Source of the DNA: Lacinutrix mariniflava
Lineage (GTDB): Bacteria; Bacteroidota; Bacteroidia; Flavobacteriales; Flavobacteriaceae
DNA: 64,000 nucleotides
Reading direction: 5' to 3'
Assembly (NCBI RefSeq): GCF_001418015.1
Contig: NZ_LIQG01000032.1
Location: forward strand, 124,001-188,000
The position numbers and the translations under genes are program-made. The notes beneath the pieces are model-generated. The model had not been told where the DNA came from. It was given only the letters and a program-made list of their open reading frames with translations, and did not search any database. Each line of letters opens with the position of its first letter. Position 1 is the first letter of the stretch. Shown here one piece after another: positions 5,924 through 62,458 of this stretch.

Positions 5924-6221
5924 AATAAGTTTTCAGTGCTCAGTAGGCAGTAAACAGTCACTTACTCTTGCTTAACATTCTTTACAGTCTTCAGTAGCCG
6001 TTTATAGCTACTTACTCACAAGTAATAACTTAATGTTAGATATTTAATTGAAAATAAAAACTTTAATAACAGAATATTAATCATTCCCGATTAAGTGCTC
6101 TCCTCTTATTTTAAGAGGAGAATGAATTCAAATTTCCACAAGAAATTTCAAGAAAGAGGAGTTAAAACATAAAGATTACCGCTGGAGTTTATCTTGAGCG
6201 CAGTCGAAAGACGAAATAAAA
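5924..6221. other. Intergenic region with palindrome and dispersed repeat
   Basis: No gene seen. It contains repeated 'cagt'-rich phrases (5935-6015), an inverted repeat with arms CTCCTCTTA / TAAGAGGAG at 6101-6121 without a clear T-tract, and the dispersed 45-bp repeat at 6172-6216 directly before the next start codon. Confidence 0.6.
6172..6216 (+). repeat. 45-bp dispersed repeat, copy 1 (5' leader of methyltransferase)
   Basis: The 45-bp segment with core TTGAGCGCAGTCGAAAG recurs at 54509-54553 on the opposite strand with 3 differences. In both places it ends a few bases before a start codon and has the same orientation relative to the gene. Confidence 0.8.
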
Positions 6222-26312: not shown

Positions 26313-26383
26313 TTGACTTTGTCAGAAAAAACAACTAACTTCGTTTAACATCTGATATAAAACATTGAAACGCTTTTATATCA
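26313..26383 (+). promoter_or_regulatory. Upstream module 1: promoter plus hairpin
   Basis: TTG (26313-26315), 20-bp spacer, TAACTTCG (26336-26343), CGTTTAAC, then a hairpin with arms TGATATAAAA (26353-26362) and TTTTATATCA (26374-26383). The stem is a compensated variant of the TGATAAAAAA/TTTTTTATCA form seen in other copies. Confidence 0.8.
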
Positions 26384-26412
26384 ATGGAATATTGTATGCA
26401 ATTTGACAACCA

Positions 26413-26814
26413 ATGAACAAAGGATTAAAATATGGACTTCTGATTTTCGGAATTGTAATAATTACAGTTGTCGGATTTATTGGATTTGGACTTTACTCAA
26501 TGGAAATTGAAGACCATTATGGCGACCTAAAAGAATTATATTATGATTCAAAAAGTGGAGATATAATACTGAATAAATCTACTTCTGAATTTGGAATAAT
26601 CGAAAAAAACTGGAAACGTTTAAATATCCGAACTCATAAAAAAGATTCTACGGATTTATATAATTGGGTTTATCAAAACGGAATTGAAACCAAGGCGGAA
26701 ATTTACAGACCGATAATTGAAACGGAAAACATAAATAGTTTGAATTATTCAGAGGTTGTTGACAAAATAAATGCTTCTGAAATGACTTTTATAAATGGAA
26801 ATAAAAAAGAATAA
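26413..26814 (+). CDS. Unknown membrane-anchored protein (cassette unit 1)
   Basis: A protein of 133 residues with one N-terminal membrane segment (YGLLIFGIVIITVVGFIGFGLY, residues 7-28) and a polar domain rich in Lys, Asp and Asn. I recognise no family. It sits 30 bp after the hairpin of an upstream module and ends just before the attC-like downstream module 1, so it is the sole passenger of the unit. Confidence that it is a real gene rests on length, signal-anchor structure and context. Confidence 0.6.
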   Translation: MNKGLKYGLLIFGIVIITVVGFIGFGLYSMEIEDHYGDLKELYYDSKSGDIILNKSTSEFGIIEKNWKRLNIRTHKKDSTDLYNWVYQNGIETKAEIYRPIIETENINSLNYSEVVDKINASEMTFINGNKKE

Positions 26815-26820
26815 AAACTG

Positions 26821-26958
26821 CATACAACACCGTATAAAAATAATTGCGGCTTAGTGCTTAATCAAAGGTCGTTGCGTGTTTGTAACGTCTGATTTTCCTT
26901 CGGAAAATCCTCGCATACAAACCCGCAACTATTCTTATACATAAACGTTAAACGAACC
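26821..26958 (+). repeat. attC-like downstream module 1
   Basis: Long imperfect palindrome. Outer arms ACCGTATAAAAATAATTGCGG and its partner near 26923-26941, inner arms around GTTGCGTGTTTGTAACG, central hairpin GATTTTCC-TTC-GGAAAATC (26891-26909), right end GTTAAACGAACC (26947-26958). Nearly identical to module 8 at 38181, differing at 3-4 positions. Confidence 0.8.
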
Positions 26959-27207: not shown

Positions 27208-27277
27208 TTGACTTTATCAGAAAAACAACTAACTTCGTTTAACATCTGATAAGCAATATTGAAACGCTTTTTTATCA
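27208..27277 (+). promoter_or_regulatory. Upstream module 2 (hairpin partly decayed)
   Basis: TTG (27208-27210), 19-bp spacer, TAACTTCG (27230-27237), CGTTTAAC. The left arm TGATAAGCAA no longer pairs fully with TTTTTTATCA (27268-27277); about 6 bp remain. Confidence 0.7.
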
Positions 27278-27323
27278 ATGGAACTTTTCACTTAATGTCT
27301 AAGCATAGCCGAAAAAATAATAA

Positions 27324-28032: not shown

Positions 28033-28126
28033 TTGACTTTGCCACAAAAATCAATTAACTTCGTTTAACATCTTATAAAAAACACTTGAGCTTAAATTGG
28101 TTTAGTATTTAAACAATTTTTAATCA
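28033..28126 (+). promoter_or_regulatory. Upstream module 3 (long type, diverged)
   Basis: TTG (28033-28035), 20-bp spacer, TAACTTCG (28056-28063), CGTTTAAC, then a decayed long-type hairpin ending TTTTTAATCA (28117-28126). Gap 27786-28158 has only downstream module 2, a spacer and this module. Confidence 0.6.
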
Positions 28127-28158
28127 ATAAAATAGTGTGTTTCATAAACAAAACAAAT

Positions 28159-29540: not shown

Positions 29541-29611
29541 TTGACTTTATCAGAAAAAACAACTAACTTCGTTTAACATCTGATAAAAAACATTGAAACG
29601 CTTTTTTATCA
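29541..29611 (+). promoter_or_regulatory. Upstream module 4
   Basis: TTG (29541-29543), 20-bp spacer, TAACTTCG (29564-29571), CGTTTAAC, perfect hairpin arms TGATAAAAAA (29581-29590) and TTTTTTATCA (29602-29611), loop CATTGAAACGC. The gap 29266-29656 consists of downstream module 3, a spacer and this module. Confidence 0.8.
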
Positions 29612-29656
29612 ATGGAATAGTTGTGCATAATTTGACCAAACCAAAATCTGAACTGA

Positions 29657-30412: not shown

Positions 30413-30506
30413 TTGACTTTATCAGAAAAAACAACTAACTTCGTTTAACATCTGATAAAAAACACCTGTGCTGAACTTGATTCAGTATTGAAATGATTTT
30501 TTATCA
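30413..30506 (+). promoter_or_regulatory. Upstream module 5 (long type)
   Basis: TTG (30413-30415), 20-bp spacer, TAACTTCG (30436-30443). Outer arms TGATAAAAAA (30453-30462) and TTTTTTATCA (30497-30506) enclose a second small hairpin CTGAA-CTTGA-TTCAG (30471-30485). The 30154-30529 gap holds downstream module 4, a spacer and this module. Confidence 0.8.
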
Positions 30507-30529
30507 ATGGAATATTGTAAACAAGCAAA

Positions 30530-36060: not shown

Positions 36061-36132
36061 TTAGCAACAGAACCTTAAATCGTTTATTGATAACTCTAGC
36101 CTACTTTCCAAAACTCTGATAAGTTTTTCAAT

Positions 36133-36194
36133 TATAAAAAATTAGCCTTATACCATTCCACTTGAGCTTTCACGCCTTCTAATAAAGTTGTTTG
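36133..36194 (-). pseudogene. Copy of the epimerase 3' end (last 19-20 codons)
   Basis: On the minus strand it encodes the epimerase C-terminus ending EWYKANFL (stop TAA instead of TAG) and breaks off after the bases corresponding to QTTL at the same point as the copy at 37441. Flanking sequence to 36348 also matches 37503-37656. Confidence 0.8.
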
Positions 36195-36308
36195 CGGCAT
36201 CTTTATTCAAAAAAAATGAAACTAAACATCAAATATTAAAAGGATAAAAGAGTAACAGTAGTGTTTAATTAAGATGAAATTATTCGCTTTGCTATGCTTT
36301 CGTTTTAC

Positions 36309-36402
36309 TTGACTTTCTATGAAAAAACAACTAACTTCGTTTAACATTTGATAAAAAATACCTGTGCTGAACTTGATTCAGTATTGAAACGATTTTTTAT
36401 CA
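36309..36402 (+). promoter_or_regulatory. Upstream module 7 (long type)
   Basis: TTG (36309-36311), 20-bp spacer, TAACTTCG (36332-36339), outer arms TGATAAAAAA (36349-36358) and TTTTTTATCA (36393-36402), inner hairpin CTGAA/TTCAG (36367-36381). Nearly the same as module 5. Confidence 0.8.
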
Positions 36403-36425
36403 ATGGAATATTGCCATTAATTTGA

Positions 36426-37375: not shown

Positions 37376-37440
37376 TTTTCTATTCTTAATACTCAAGAGC
37401 TATTAATAAAACTCTTATTACCTCTTGTATATAACGCTAA

Positions 37441-37502
37441 CTACAAAAAATTAGCCTTATACCATTCCACTTGAGCTTTCACGCCTTCTAATAAGGTTGT
37501 TT
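37441..37502 (-). pseudogene. Second copy of the epimerase 3' end
   Basis: Identical to the real gene end at 38438-38500 and breaks off at the same base (after GTTGTTTG on the plus strand). The block 37316-37502 repeats 38310-38500 with only indels in the A-run and one other base. Gap 37182-37706 is filled by modules, terminator and this remnant. Confidence 0.85.
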
Positions 37503-37616
37503 GCGGCATCTTTATTAAAAAAAATGAAACTAAACATCAAATCTTAAAAGGATAAAAGAGTAACAATAGTATTTAATTAAGATGAAATTGTTCGCTTTGC
37601 TATGCTTTTGTTTTAC

Positions 37617-37687
37617 TTGACTTTCTAAGAAAAAACAACTAACTTCGTTTAACATCTGATAAAAAACATTGAAACGATTTTTTATCA
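37617..37687 (+). promoter_or_regulatory. Upstream module 8
   Basis: TTG (37617-37619), 20-bp spacer, TAACTTCG (37640-37647), perfect arms TGATAAAAAA (37657-37666) and TTTTTTATCA (37678-37687). Confidence 0.8.
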
Positions 37688-37706
37688 ATGGAATATTGTA
37701 AAACAT

Positions 37707-38371: not shown

Positions 38372-38437
38372 CTTTTCTATTCTTAATACTCAAGAGCTAT
38401 TAATAAAACTCTTATTACCTCTTGTATATAACGCTAA

Positions 38438-39379
38438 CTACAAAAAATTAGCCTTATACCATTCCACTTGAGCTTTCACGCCTTCTAATAAGGTTGTTTG
38501 GGGATTGTAATCTAGCAACTCCTTAGCTTTATCAATATTCGCTTTAGTACGTAATTGATCTCCTGCTCTTGCAGATACATGATTTATTTTAATAGACTTA
38601 CCAATAACTGCCTCTACAGCCTCAATACCATCTTGTGTTGTATGTTCTACTTCTGTTCCAAGATTAATAATTTCACCATTAACTTTAGCTTCATTACCAA
38701 CAACACTTACAATACCATCTACAATATCGCCAACGTAAGTAAAACTCCTTAAATGCGTCGCGCTACCGTCGTATAACGGAAACTCAGTATTATTATAAGC
38801 ACAAGCAATTAACTTGGTGTACATTTTTTCTGGACGTTCTCTTGGTCCTATTACAGAATATAATCGCAAAGAACACGATTGAAATAATTTCTCTCTACTC
38901 TTTTGAAGCACTAATTGCTCGGCTGCTAACTTTGTAACTCCGTAATGAGATGCAGGTTTTGGTGCAACACTCTCTGGAAAAGTGGCTTCTAAACCATAAA
39001 TAGACGATGTTCCTATATTAACCAAAAGGTTTAAATTGGGAAGCGTTGAAGCGTAATCAATTAAATTTTTGGTTCCTAAAATATTATTCGTAAAATAATC
39101 TTCGAAAGTTGATGAAGCCGAAATTCCTGGCTGTGCTGCAAAATGAAAGATATAATTAATATCTTTTGGCAGCGCATCAGTTAAATCCTCTGCTCTTAAA
39201 TCATGCTTAATAATGGTAACACCAATAGCATTTAGGGCTTTTTCATTTAAATGTTTAAGCTCCAAACTATAATAATCATTAAAATTATCTAAACCTACCA
39301 CATCATGCCCTAAACGCTTTAAACGTTCGCATGTGTGAGAGCCAATAAATCCTGCTGCTCCTGTTACTAATATCTTCAT
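38438..39379 (-). CDS. NAD-dependent sugar-nucleotide epimerase/dehydratase (intact array anchor)
   Basis: An extended SDR of 313 residues with GAAGFIGSHTCERL (residues 7-20), FHFAAQPG, the active-site segment NIGTSSIYG and YGVTK (YxxxK), and the substrate-domain motif RLYSVIGPRERPEKM. It resembles UDP-glucuronate/glucose 4-epimerase types that act in surface polysaccharide synthesis. Its last 20 codons are duplicated at 36133 and 37441 and, in decayed form, at 27067, on the array side of its stop codon. It is divergent from the glycosyltransferase cluster that follows. Confidence 0.88.
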   Translation of the reverse strand: MKILVTGAAGFIGSHTCERLKRLGHDVVGLDNFNDYYSLELKHLNEKALNAIGVTIIKHDLRAEDLTDALPKDINYIFHFAAQPGISASSTFEDYFTNNILGTKNLIDYASTLPNLNLLVNIGTSSIYGLEATFPESVAPKPASHYGVTKLAAEQLVLQKSREKLFQSCSLRLYSVIGPRERPEKMYTKLIACAYNNTEFPLYDGSATHLRSFTYVGDIVDGIVSVVGNEAKVNGEIINLGTEVEHTTQDGIEAVEAVIGKSIKINHVSARAGDQLRTKANIDKAKELLDYNPQTTLLEGVKAQVEWYKANFL

Positions 39380-54502: not shown

Positions 54503-54508
54503 CTTTGG

Positions 54509-54553
54509 TTTCGCCTTTCGACTGCGCTCAAGGTAAACTTCAGCGGTAATCTT
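54509..54553 (-). repeat. 45-bp dispersed repeat, copy 2 (5' leader of mnmA)
   Basis: Same as copy 1 at 6172-6216 with 3 of 45 positions changed; ends 6 bp before the mnmA ATG and is oriented like copy 1 with respect to the gene. Confidence 0.8.
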
Positions 54554-54791
54554 AATGTATTACAATATCATTTTTTTAGATGATAAAGATAAATGTTTTT
54601 AATATTATTTCCTTGAGGTTCTCTGAGGTTAACAGAGCATCACAGAGGATTTTTTTGTAGCTGAAATATTTAAAATGCAAATTGTGTTTTAGACACGGAA
54701 TACACAAATTTTCACGGATTAGTATCGTTCTAAATACTCAAACTGTATACTAATCAACTTCTATTTCTTTCTCCCTTTTGCCTTCTAAATA

Positions 54792-59677: not shown

Positions 59678-59748
59678 TTGACTTTGTCGTTTTTTTAGGC
59701 TAACTTCGTTTAACGTATGATATAAAACATTGAAACGATTTTATATCA
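59678..59748 (+). promoter_or_regulatory. Upstream module 9 (isolated unit)
   Basis: TTG (59678-59680), 20-bp spacer of different sequence, TAACTTCG (59701-59708), CGTTTAAC, hairpin arms TGATATAAAA (59718-59727) and TTTTATATCA (59739-59748), loop CATTGAAACGA. Same compensated stem as module 1, 33 kb away. Confidence 0.8.
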
Positions 59749-59780
59749 ATGAGACATTGGCAACAAGCTGAAGAAACAGA

Positions 59781-60581
59781 ATGAATAAACTAAAAACAGG
59801 AGAGTTTTACGGAACACATTTCCAAAAATCAGCTTTTGAAAATCTAATAATTACAGATACAGAATATACACATAGTAAAGTTGATTGGCATTATCACGAA
59901 AATCCATATTTCACTTATCTACTTCAAGGAAAACTATTTGAATCTAACAAAAATGAATCTTACTATTTAGAACCTGGAAATCTATTATTTCATAATTGGC
60001 AAGATGCACATTACAATATCAAACCACCTGAATTTACAAGAGGTTTTCACATTGAATTAAATGATAAATGGTTTTCAACTTTTGATATTCAAATAACAGA
60101 TTTTGAAGGAAGTATCAATTTAAAGAATCCAATAATAAAAAACTTGATGAACCATATATTTGTCGAAACTAAAATTAACGACCAATATTCAAATTTAAGC
60201 ATTGAGAGCAACTTGATTGATATATTTAACACGATAAACGAATCAAAAAGAGAAAATTCAAAAAAACCAATTTGGGTAAAGCACTTAAAAGAGTTATTGT
60301 TTGAGGAAAAAACAGACTATTCTTTAAAAAGCTTGAGTTCAAAATTAGAAATCCATCCCATTCATTTATCTAGAGAGTTTAACCGGTATTTTGGAACAAG
60401 CCTTGGCAACTATATTCGATTGATGAAACTGAATAAAGCGTTTTACTTACTTACATCAAACAAATTTTCAATGACGGAAATTTGTTATCAGTGTGGCTTC
60501 TACGACCAAAGTCATTTCATTTCAAACTTCAAACGAATATATCACACAACACCAACTAAATTATTGAGAAAAATTGTCTAA
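59781..60581 (+). CDS. AraC-family transcription regulator (unit 9)
   Basis: A protein of 266 residues. N-terminal cupin-like sensor (VDWHYHENPYFTYLLQGKLFE ... YYLEPGNLLFHNW) and a C-terminal double HTH (SLKSLSSKLEIHPIHLSREFNRYFGTSLGNYIR; FSMTEICYQCGFYDQSHFISNFKRIYHTTPTKL). It starts 32 bp after the module-9 hairpin and lies 70 bp before a serine hydrolase gene, its likely target. Confidence 0.9.
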   Translation: MNKLKTGEFYGTHFQKSAFENLIITDTEYTHSKVDWHYHENPYFTYLLQGKLFESNKNESYYLEPGNLLFHNWQDAHYNIKPPEFTRGFHIELNDKWFSTFDIQITDFEGSINLKNPIIKNLMNHIFVETKINDQYSNLSIESNLIDIFNTINESKRENSKKPIWVKHLKELLFEEKTDYSLKSLSSKLEIHPIHLSREFNRYFGTSLGNYIRLMKLNKAFYLLTSNKFSMTEICYQCGFYDQSHFISNFKRIYHTTPTKLLRKIV

Positions 60582-60651
60582 TGTTAATATAATACAATTT
60601 CAAAATGGTTAGAGATCTTATTTTTACAGCTTATTTAAAATCAATCAAAAA

Positions 60652-62322
60652 ATGAGAATTAAAAACCTGTTGATGTTACTTATTGTTCTTTTGTCATTTT
60701 CGACCTATGCCCAAGATATGAAAGATTACACAAGCAATTGGGAAGGCAAAATTGAAAGTTCAAGAACATTCAATATAAAAGTTGAAATAGAAAATCTAGG
60801 ACTTGAAAAAGCTAGATTCAAAATTTCGAATAATAAAAGTATTATTGACTATCCATTTGATTCAAAAAGCACTTCAATATTAAAAATACCATTTGCAGAA
60901 AATCATTCTTTTGAAGGTGTACTTTCTGAAAATGAAAAAGAGATTAACGGCTTTATTAAATCGGGTTTATTACTCTATCATTTGAAATTGACACTATCAA
61001 ACCGCAATTCGTTTGTAGGTGTTTGGAATATATTAATGGTAGATAAATTAAAGTCTGAAAAATTCTACTTAAGTCTAGAAAATGGATCAGGAAACAACTA
61101 TGAGGCTTATCCTTTTTTTGGCGATAATACATTTACAGGAACTTGGTGTACTAATTTTCAAAAAGAAAATGATAGTTTATTTTTTGAAGATTTTAAAACA
61201 GGATTAAAGTTTAAAGGAAAATTACTTCCTCAAAAAATTAATTTAGGAATTTATATAGGCGATGGTTTAGTTTCTCAAATTGATTTAAAAAAATCTAACA
61301 CAGATTGGGAGATAGGCTTATTTGATACCATTAAAATTGATAAAATTACTGGTAACCTTCAATTTGAAGAAATGGAAAAGCTTATCGCAAAAGACAGCTT
61401 TCCAAATACACATTCAGTTTTAATTTCAAGAAAAGGCGAACTTATATACGAAAACTATTTTGATGGTTATAACTCAAATATTCCTCATCAGATGAAATCT
61501 GCTTCAAAAAGCATATCATCTGCAATTGTGGGAATTGCAAAAGATAAGTCATTATTTATAAATGTTGAGCAATCAATTTTTGATTTTTTACCTAAAAAAT
61601 ATCAAACTTATAAAGACAGTTTAAAGTCGAAAATAAATCTAGAAAGCCTTTTAACAATGAGTTCTGGAATAGATGCTGTTGACTATGGTATTAACGCAAA
61701 TGCAGAATCACCTGCTGTAGAAGATAATTTTCAAATGACAAAAGACTGGACAGAAACAATATTAAATTCTAAAATGATTAATCGTCCAAACACGAAAGCC
61801 AATTATGGTTCTGCAAATCCTTATCTTCTTGGTGTGGCTATTGACTCAATAGTTTCAGAATCTTTAGCATTATTTATTGACAAAAATTTATTTCAACCAC
61901 TTAAAATTTCAAATTATGTAATTCAATCAGATTTAAAAGGAAAGCCATACTTTGGCGGTGGAATGTATCTAACGCCAAAAGATATGCTGAAATTTGGGGA
62001 ATTATATCTTGGAAAAGGGAAATGGGAATCAAAACGAATTCTATCAAAAAAATGGATTAAAAATTCATTTAAAAATTATAGAAATTTAGAAAACGTGCAA
62101 GAAAAAAATGGCTATGGTTATTTATGGTGGCACAACACATACGAAACTAAAAGAAAACGCATAAAATCTATTGAAGCTAGAGGTAATGGAGGTCAGTATA
62201 TTTTTGTTCTTCCTTCTTTAAAAACGGTTGTTGTTATAACTGCTGGAAATTACAGAAATGGAAAAACACAACAACCTGAAATGGTTTTTGAAAAATATAT
62301 TTTACCTTACCTTGAAAATTAA
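60652..62322 (+). CDS. Secreted serine hydrolase, class C beta-lactamase fold (unit 9)
   Basis: A protein of 556 residues with signal peptide MRIKNLLMLLIVLLSFSTYAQ. An N-terminal beta-rich region (about 22-230) precedes the serine-hydrolase domain: HQMKSASKSISSAIVGIAK (SxxK), LESLLTMSSGID, NYGSANPYLLGVAID (YxN-like), and a late GNGGQYIFVLP segment in the place of the KTG box. It is related to AmpC-like peptidases and esterases; the exact substrate is unknown. Second passenger of the isolated unit. Confidence 0.85.
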   Translation: MRIKNLLMLLIVLLSFSTYAQDMKDYTSNWEGKIESSRTFNIKVEIENLGLEKARFKISNNKSIIDYPFDSKSTSILKIPFAENHSFEGVLSENEKEINGFIKSGLLLYHLKLTLSNRNSFVGVWNILMVDKLKSEKFYLSLENGSGNNYEAYPFFGDNTFTGTWCTNFQKENDSLFFEDFKTGLKFKGKLLPQKINLGIYIGDGLVSQIDLKKSNTDWEIGLFDTIKIDKITGNLQFEEMEKLIAKDSFPNTHSVLISRKGELIYENYFDGYNSNIPHQMKSASKSISSAIVGIAKDKSLFINVEQSIFDFLPKKYQTYKDSLKSKINLESLLTMSSGIDAVDYGINANAESPAVEDNFQMTKDWTETILNSKMINRPNTKANYGSANPYLLGVAIDSIVSESLALFIDKNLFQPLKISNYVIQSDLKGKPYFGGGMYLTPKDMLKFGELYLGKGKWESKRILSKKWIKNSFKNYRNLENVQEKNGYGYLWWHNTYETKRKRIKSIEARGNGGQYIFVLPSLKTVVVITAGNYRNGKTQQPEMVFEKYILPYLEN

Positions 62323-62324
62323 AT

Positions 62325-62458
62325 ATAGCTAGTAAGCTCCTTATCAAAGATTTGTGTTTATTTATGAAGTCCGCCAAATCGCAGATTTGACTAAGTTATA
62401 ATCCGAAACTTCGTGCATATTTATACGTTACATATACTAGCAAACATTAAACGAACCT
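62325..62458 (+). repeat. attC-like downstream module 9 (isolated unit)
   Basis: Arms GCTAGTAA near 62328 and TACTAGC near 62436, central hairpin CAAATC-GCA-GATTTG (about 62375-62389), and the same right end AACATTAAACGAACC. Body sequence unrelated to the array copies. Confidence 0.65.

Follow-up and report, generated by a model that had tools for sequence, protein, structure and literature searches.

Integrons are usually described as a single platform that has one promoter and an array of gene cassettes, most of them silent. For secondary integration into attG sites, cassette insertions broadly distributed over many loci are described in the available text of PMC12444791 (citing Loot et al. 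2024), and gene-less promoter cassettes of Vibrio superintegrons are described in the accessible part of PMC11014356. The subject here is a gene pair, encoding an AraC regulator and a serine hydrolase, that lies between pyrG and DUF3820 in Lacinutrix mariniflava, within a 64,000-nt stretch of contig NZ_LIQG01000032.1 (positions 124,001 to 188,000, forward strand), which is called the window below. The pair is flanked by an upstream repeat module and a right end, ATTAAACGAACC, and is very likely an integron-type cassette sitting in a dispersed, fixed docking site and derived from the same pool as a cassette array near a 278-aa tyrosine recombinase. At the sequence level this is carried by the anatomy of the docking sites, by sites found empty, by the turnover of passengers, by exact junctions, by the pairing of attC sites, by the array itself and by one cassette that is identical in a docking site and in the array.

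In the proposed mechanism a single crossover at A/G^TT would put the cassette into the docking site, whose left half would then stand upstream of the gene and whose last 11 bases would stand downstream. The site would supply a promoter-like sequence, from which the passenger may be expressed, and an attC-like palindrome. The candidate enzyme is the 278-aa recombinase, which would shuttle cassettes between the array and the docking sites in circular form, as folded single strands.

Integrons in the phylum Bacteroidota are not new as such. According to the available text of PMC9024848, an earlier study had only In0 elements in the Bacteroidetes and one complete integron, in Salinibacter, was added; the phylum is named among those with integrons in the accessible parts of PMC9668308 and PMC8618304. 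The words Bacteroid- and Flavobact- are not present in PMC8352920 and PMC10963911. No Flavobacteriaceae integron was found in the published literature searched (top matches among open-licence papers), and neither this recombinase type nor the docking sites were found reported there.

The unit between pyrG and DUF3820 and its docking site

The unit consists of the following parts.

59678..59708, + strand, promoter-like part of the docking site (TTG at 59678-59680, 20 nt, TAACTTCG at 59701-59708)
59705..59756, + strand, left arm and hairpin of the docking site (R''-like TTCGTTTAAC, stem GATATAAAA/TTTTATATC, spacer to A59756; fold and pair counts from empty sites)
59757..62446, + strand, inserted cassette of 2690 nt (TTGGCAACAAGC ... 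GCAAACA), with borders from comparison with empty sites and with the same cassette elsewhere (L164/L187)
59781..60581, + strand, AraC-family regulator, 266 aa (PF12833, 6.5e-19; PF00165)
60652..62322, + strand, beta-lactamase-fold serine hydrolase, 556 aa (PF00144, 1.4e-17)
62323..62446, + strand, putative decayed cassette recombination site (attC remnant), from partial likeness by eye to attC bodies of other cassettes
62447..62457, + strand, right arm of the docking site, TTAAACGAACC; the same arm type closes empty sites and covaries with the left arm in three units elsewhere

Upstream, the module at 59678-59756 is a complete representative of a repeat family. Its match to the family model at 59678-59755 (78.6 bits, E 3.4e-23) has the top score among the window copies, the module being itself one of the 22 training sequences. 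The original prediction had described a module with the same TAACTTCG and stem as module 1, followed downstream by a part with the shared right end and a different body. Both descriptions hold: model match and positions agree for TAACTTCG and for the stem (59719-59727/59739-59747), and ATTAAACGAACC is found at 62446-62457 behind a body unlike that of the remaining downstream modules. The last 11 bases of this right end are part of the docking site. It also holds that the unit has no copy of the terminator or epimerase found in the spacer at 26-38 kb (20 of 21 direct-repeat families listed, minimum length 30). The pattern TAACTTCGTTTAAC, with at most one mismatch, occurs at 35 places in the 3.97-Mb genome and its reversed control at two, so the family is not a product of chance. 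All listed matches of the TAACTTCGTTTAAC type on contig C32 are on one strand.

By its sequence, the upstream module forms the left, fixed half of what is called a dock below, a docking site with a promoter-like TTG-N20-KAACTTCG and an attC-like palindrome. More than 30 docks are present in the window genome, and 33 of its units were parsed in detail. A model of 22 left halves gave 51 matches in this genome at E <=0.001, and 2 to 51 per genome across 13 genomes of the genus; these searches score sequence only, because RNAalifold assigned no base pairs to the model. The genus member with the fewest matches (2) is G003. Exact copies of the dock core are found in Lacinutrix (including L. algicola AKS293), in Winogradskyella and in one Flavobacteriaceae metagenome-assembled genome, on 18 stretches of the species collection.

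TTGA and TTCG are invariant across the 22 aligned docks, and the layout was compared with the usual spacing of a -33/-7 promoter motif. It is similar to the motif published as TTTG/TAnnTTTG (available text of PMC2483708), with TTCG instead of TTTG. By analogy, TTG-N20-KAACTTCG may initiate transcription into the passenger. The longest open reading frame (ORF) is on the dock strand in 30 of 31 units; the remaining unit gave no ORF, owing to how its end was chosen.

Twelve clean empty docks were collected, and two further matches were dropped as not clean. In the twelve, 97.6% of cells are paired, compared with at most 50.8% in slid versions, and seven cells are changed on both sides, a number matched by none of 500 shuffles (mean 2.4). 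One of the twelve, L080, folds into a two-stem hairpin that is better on the bottom strand (z -2.0) than on the top strand (z -1.0). In occupied units, too, the two cores can be complementary. Left and right cores are both consensus in 18 of 31, and a matching right core accompanies a variant left core in three of five (CGATTAA, CGTTTAT, CGCTTAA); the units with covarying arms are L091, L093 and L096.

The cassette array

The array covers 57 kb. It has 42 attC right ends (C20:22013-78887, in 79.6 kb scanned) and none on the opposite strand, while three shuffles gave 0 to 3. It is on the plus strand and starts beside the gene of the 278-aa recombinase (C20:20596-21432, minus strand), a divergent arrangement. 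In 37 of the 40 array cassettes tested, at least 5 of the 6 variable bases at the cassette start are complementary to the cassette's own R''; swapped combinations reach this in 126 of 1560. AAACG^TTATCTATAAG is present in the interval between recombinase and array, with its complement ahead of the first attC, and no empty attI was seen.

Comparable arrays stand beside this type of recombinase in G007 (two loci), G073 and G026, and shorter sets in G005, G129 and G111. In all of these (stretches L207-L213, both loci of G007 included) the attC ends follow the recombinase gene downstream and share its strand. G044 has no convincing attC set near the recombinase, and on a Persicobacter plasmid with a relative of the recombinase the array patterns were not recognised within 9 kb. 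Genes for IS110-family transposases occur inside arrays at L233:14211-15203, L208:11906-12898 and L208:15314-16306 (two of the three were scanned by Pfam), and in L208 one copy of a repeat starts directly at an attC end.

Array and docks are linked by a cassette in the first of the docks at 26-38 kb of the window, where the model matches seven left halves.

26313..26391, + strand, dock left half 1, model match
26392..26949, + strand, cassette in the first dock of the window, a 558-nt run identical to the array at C20:29359-29916
27208..27284, + strand, dock left half 2, model match
28033..28132, + strand, dock left half 3, with loop insert, model match
29541..29618, + strand, dock left half 4, model match
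30413..30513, + strand, dock left half 5, with loop insert, model match
36309..36409, + strand, dock left half 6, with loop insert, model match
37617..37694, + strand, dock left half 7, model match

The identity over 558 nt ends exactly at the TT cores on both sides. The left neighbour of the cassette is a dock in one copy and an attC in the other, and the two left flanks have 0 nt in common.

These junctions bear on a rival in which docks and attC repeats exchange passengers by plain homologous recombination, which would require no site-specific enzyme. Material for such exchange exists: the left sides of the docks have about 80 nt in common, and over about 150-220 nt the attC bodies of several docks are 71-92% identical to array attCs. 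Copies of an epimerase 3' end with terminator are present in the window at 36130-36215, 37439-37524 and 38436-38521, and the tandem copies there, with their duplicated spacer and epimerase ends, are therefore attributed to local tandem duplication of dock plus spacer at 26-38 kb. As an explanation of the cassettes, homologous exchange is nevertheless very unlikely. It does not account for a cassette that adjoins a dock on its left in one copy and an attC in the other without shared flank, for junctions at TT, or for the pairing between cassette start and R'' in the array.

Two further features of the window were noted. Some docks (30413-30513 and 36309-36409, as well as L084 and L088) have about 22 nt extra in the hairpin loop, of the GTGCTGAACTTGATTCAGTATT type, which we take to resemble a known Bacteroidota repeat. 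A 59-nt inverted repeat (6163-6221 and 54504-54562) is 88% complementary, with its copies 48 kb apart.

Turnover of passengers at fixed slots

The dock regions of three relatives, G007, G011 and G001, were compared with 18 slots of the window genome (homology cut-off E 1e-5; ORFs of at least 60 aa). Both flanks were matched in a partner for 14 slots, giving 30 comparisons; four slots had none. ORFs are absent from three of the intervals and present in 27, and in none of the 27 is an ORF homologous to the passenger of the window genome. The three ORF-free intervals are clean empty docks, namely the array slot in G001, C32:263k in G011 and C15:212k in G001, with the order promoter-like part, hairpin, ACATTAAACGAA or ATATTAAACGAA, flank. 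In 18 of the 27 ORF-bearing comparisons, no more than 250 nt separate the left flank from the first recognised dock of the relative. The right anchor is further out in some comparisons, by up to 1670 bp, and such intervals therefore differ by more than the cassette. The cassette runs from the TT after the A of the dock through the base before TTAAACGAACC, ending ahead of TTAAACG, with entry at A/G^TT.

The AraC-hydrolase pair itself is found at another slot in G011 and G001, where it starts with TTGGCAACACGC and TTGGCAACAAGC, respectively. Identity to these copies is 87% for the regulator and 74% for the hydrolase, and the G011 copy has a proper R'', GTTGCCAA. The slot in question is C27:73k in the window genome, which there holds genes for 446 and 190 aa; the former matches GH19 chitinase exactly at the Pfam cut-off. 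Two species likewise have another passenger pair, of 277 and 220 aa (identity 75% and 68%), at differing slots. A large passenger at L081:5009-11395 (C32:222.9k), of four genes and about 6.8 kb, occupies a dock and includes MksE and DUF3584 (MukB-like) genes; it is a condensin-type set that presumably resembles the Wadjet/MksBEF defence system.

The interval between pyrG and DUF3820 was located in 12 relatives through the neighbour DUF3820, in stretches of up to 6.4 kb and of only 1.8 kb in G008, where a contig edge ends the stretch. Neither AraC nor hydrolase was found there in any of the 12 (tblastn, 1e-5). The interval is 74 bp in G005 and G003, 495 bp in G006 and 2.4 to 4.9 kb in G004, G009 and G010. 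In G001 and G011 it is about 324 bp long, contains a degenerate module and is free of genes, and in G007 a degenerate module is accompanied by a different gene, of 194 aa. In G002 and G012 pyrG is outside the 6.4-kb stretch, and G012 has two docks beside DUF3820. This comparison, which had been proposed with the original prediction, divides its conclusions. The view of the unit as an insertion independent of the window array agrees with the absence of the genes in the 12 relatives and with the pair at another slot in G001 and G011. The view that upstream and downstream modules travel together with the passenger has to be given up. The module is found, in degenerate form, at this very place without the genes (G001, G011) or with another gene (G007), an observation named with the original prediction as one that would refute it, and orthologous slots elsewhere keep the upstream module while the passenger is different or absent, which means that this module is not mobile with the passenger.

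The same observations bear on a non-autonomous transposon, mobilised in trans, whose terminal inverted repeats would be the two modules and would move with the passenger. In its favour, the ends have inverted orientation (CGTTTAAC/GTTAAACG), with covariation in three units, and the units are dispersed. Such an element is highly improbable all the same, because the left module remains where the passenger is absent or different, persisting at empty slots, and because the sequence that dock and array have in common ends at TT and does not include the module.

The unit is probably an old insertion, locked in and no longer mobile, because its own attC appears decayed. The plasmid collection gave no match to the unit, and Rfam gave no matches.

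The recombinase and known systems

Five genes of the window genome are above the Pfam cut-off for tyrosine recombinases; the 278-aa protein is the third. In the recombinase tree it is placed apart from XerC and XerD (100/99); the tree has long branches and a single IntI-like row, so that placement relative to IntI is tentative. The alignment of a 376-aa relative with IntI4 is confined to residues 14-178 and 247-317, with nothing aligned in between, and the match of the 278-aa protein to IntI4 is likewise in two stretches. Aligned with a protein of Pseudoalteromonas that is called IntI-like from its sequence and not from NCBI's model, the 278-aa protein and its relatives have a gap. The C-terminus is SPLDFL, compared with an SPL end in IntI4 and in the Pseudoalteromonas protein. 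The NCBI model for IntI (TIGR02249) gives 180.7 against a cut-off of 265, which is reached in none of the 13 genus genomes and by none of the three proteins scanned. Matches below the cut-off occur in all 13 genomes and in 14 control genomes as well, and are therefore uninformative alone. The best NCBIfam model is NF040815 (XerA-type), described by NCBI as a site-specific tyrosine recombinase/integron integrase. The 278-aa protein scores 206.8 with it, below the cut-off of 220; the 375-376-aa relatives in G007 and G001 are above it (225 and 230.5).

The recombinase or a relative is present in 17 of 20 dock-positive and in 66 of 100 dock-negative genomes of the family, and in all 14 dock-positive genomes of high completeness, docks being searched with a strict limit and a motif from one genus. 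This co-occurrence is weak support, because the recombinase is common without docks too. In G003 (84% complete) a match to the IntI model with two stops, at C1:834586-835101, is possibly its copy of the third recombinase. Outside the Bacteroidota, plasmid NZ_CP054138.1 of Acinetobacter pittii encodes a recombinase that matches 61% of the 376-aa query with 55% identity.

A third possibility, modules driven by host XerC/XerD in the manner of the Xer-driven pdif modules of Acinetobacter plasmids, has very little probability: the genome does encode XerC- and XerD-like proteins and the dock core TTCGTTTAA presumably resembles a XerC arm, but there is one crossover point instead of paired sites, the cassette sites are long palindromes, and the array adjoins the third recombinase, on whose other side the XerC-like gene lies at a distance of about 9 kb.

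Several results weigh against the main reading, an integron-type cassette in a fixed docking site. Identity to an array cassette was found for only one of the 31 dock cassettes of the window genome compared. A match between start and R'' at no fewer than 10 of 11 positions is seen in 5 of 23 dock cassettes of this genome, compared with 6 of 506 swapped combinations, and is thus clear only in part; 10 of 33 units had been filtered out, three for lack of a TT anchor. In the empty docks three pairs are changed on both sides, a number reached in 65 of 500 shuffles (mean 1.7), and in two of the five occupied units whose left core is a variant, the right core does not match it. Eleven of the 22 docks read GAACTTCG, with GA for TA, and so depart from TAnnTTTG. 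In 9 of the 27 ORF-bearing comparisons, the left flank and the relative's first recognised dock are separated by more than 250 nt, so that ORFs ahead of the dock need not be passengers; two of the nine (L168 of G011 and L149 of G007) finish in an empty dock. The degenerate modules of the three relatives at the pyrG slot match the model weakly (E 0.0012, 0.0031 and 0.075). The recombinase or a relative is present in 83 of 120 family genomes (E 1e-38), docks in 20. In the unit itself, the R'' of the G011 cassette is absent and the fold of 62323-62452 is no better than that of shuffles (z about -0.1 on both strands), compared with z -3.4 to -3.7 for a healthy dock cassette site at 26813-26950.

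A wider reading is rather probable, at a clearly lower level than that of a docked integron-type cassette. The genome would contain a distributed integron, with a recombinase without the IntI-specific domain, a long archive of cassettes and dozens of fixed, promoter-bearing, attC-like ports, each an expression slot in which the gene is exchanged from species to species. If so, the many promoter-like ports would explain expression of array genes, and large integron-like arrays would extend into the Flavobacteriaceae. The slots would be a natural experiment in which position and port are constant and the gene differs by species. The question is raised how a recombinase without the IntI insertion handles a folded attC.

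Set against the features that define integrons, the system has R''/R' pairing with a G^TT crossover and an array of one orientation beside a recombinase gene (42 attC right ends compared with none); an IntI with the family-specific insertion in the catalytic domain is lacking. By these sequence features it works like an integron, and it is kept apart from canonical IntI integrons because the insertion is missing and the model cut-off is not reached. Likeness to sedentary chromosomal integrons extends to the recombinase beside a one-strand array, the single G^TT crossover, R''/R' pairing and mostly one gene per cassette. Unlike them, the system has a recombinase without the IntI insertion and below the NCBI IntI cut-off, the array is downstream on the same strand in those relatives examined that have another version of the recombinase, and cassettes are also found in dozens of dispersed docks.

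As far as the available text on it goes, attG integration likewise places single cassettes in the genome away from the array. The docks differ from it as palindromes that are conserved and repeated, carry a promoter-like part and occupy fixed, orthologous positions. An attG is neither attC nor attI, whereas the empty docks are attC-like paired hairpins. CALIN elements (attC clusters without integrase) are similar in having cassettes away from a recombinase gene; the differences are that docks mostly contain one cassette each and that a candidate non-IntI recombinase with its own array is encoded in the genome. With the gene-less promoter cassettes of Vibrio, within the accessible description of these, the docks share local promoters that would help cassette expression, the promoter-like sequence being here in the receiving site and not in the moving cassette. 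Compared with XerA-type recombinases (NF040815), which give the best NCBIfam model for the 278-aa protein and whose cut-off is exceeded by its longer relatives, this protein is below the cut-off and differs in the association with attC arrays found here.

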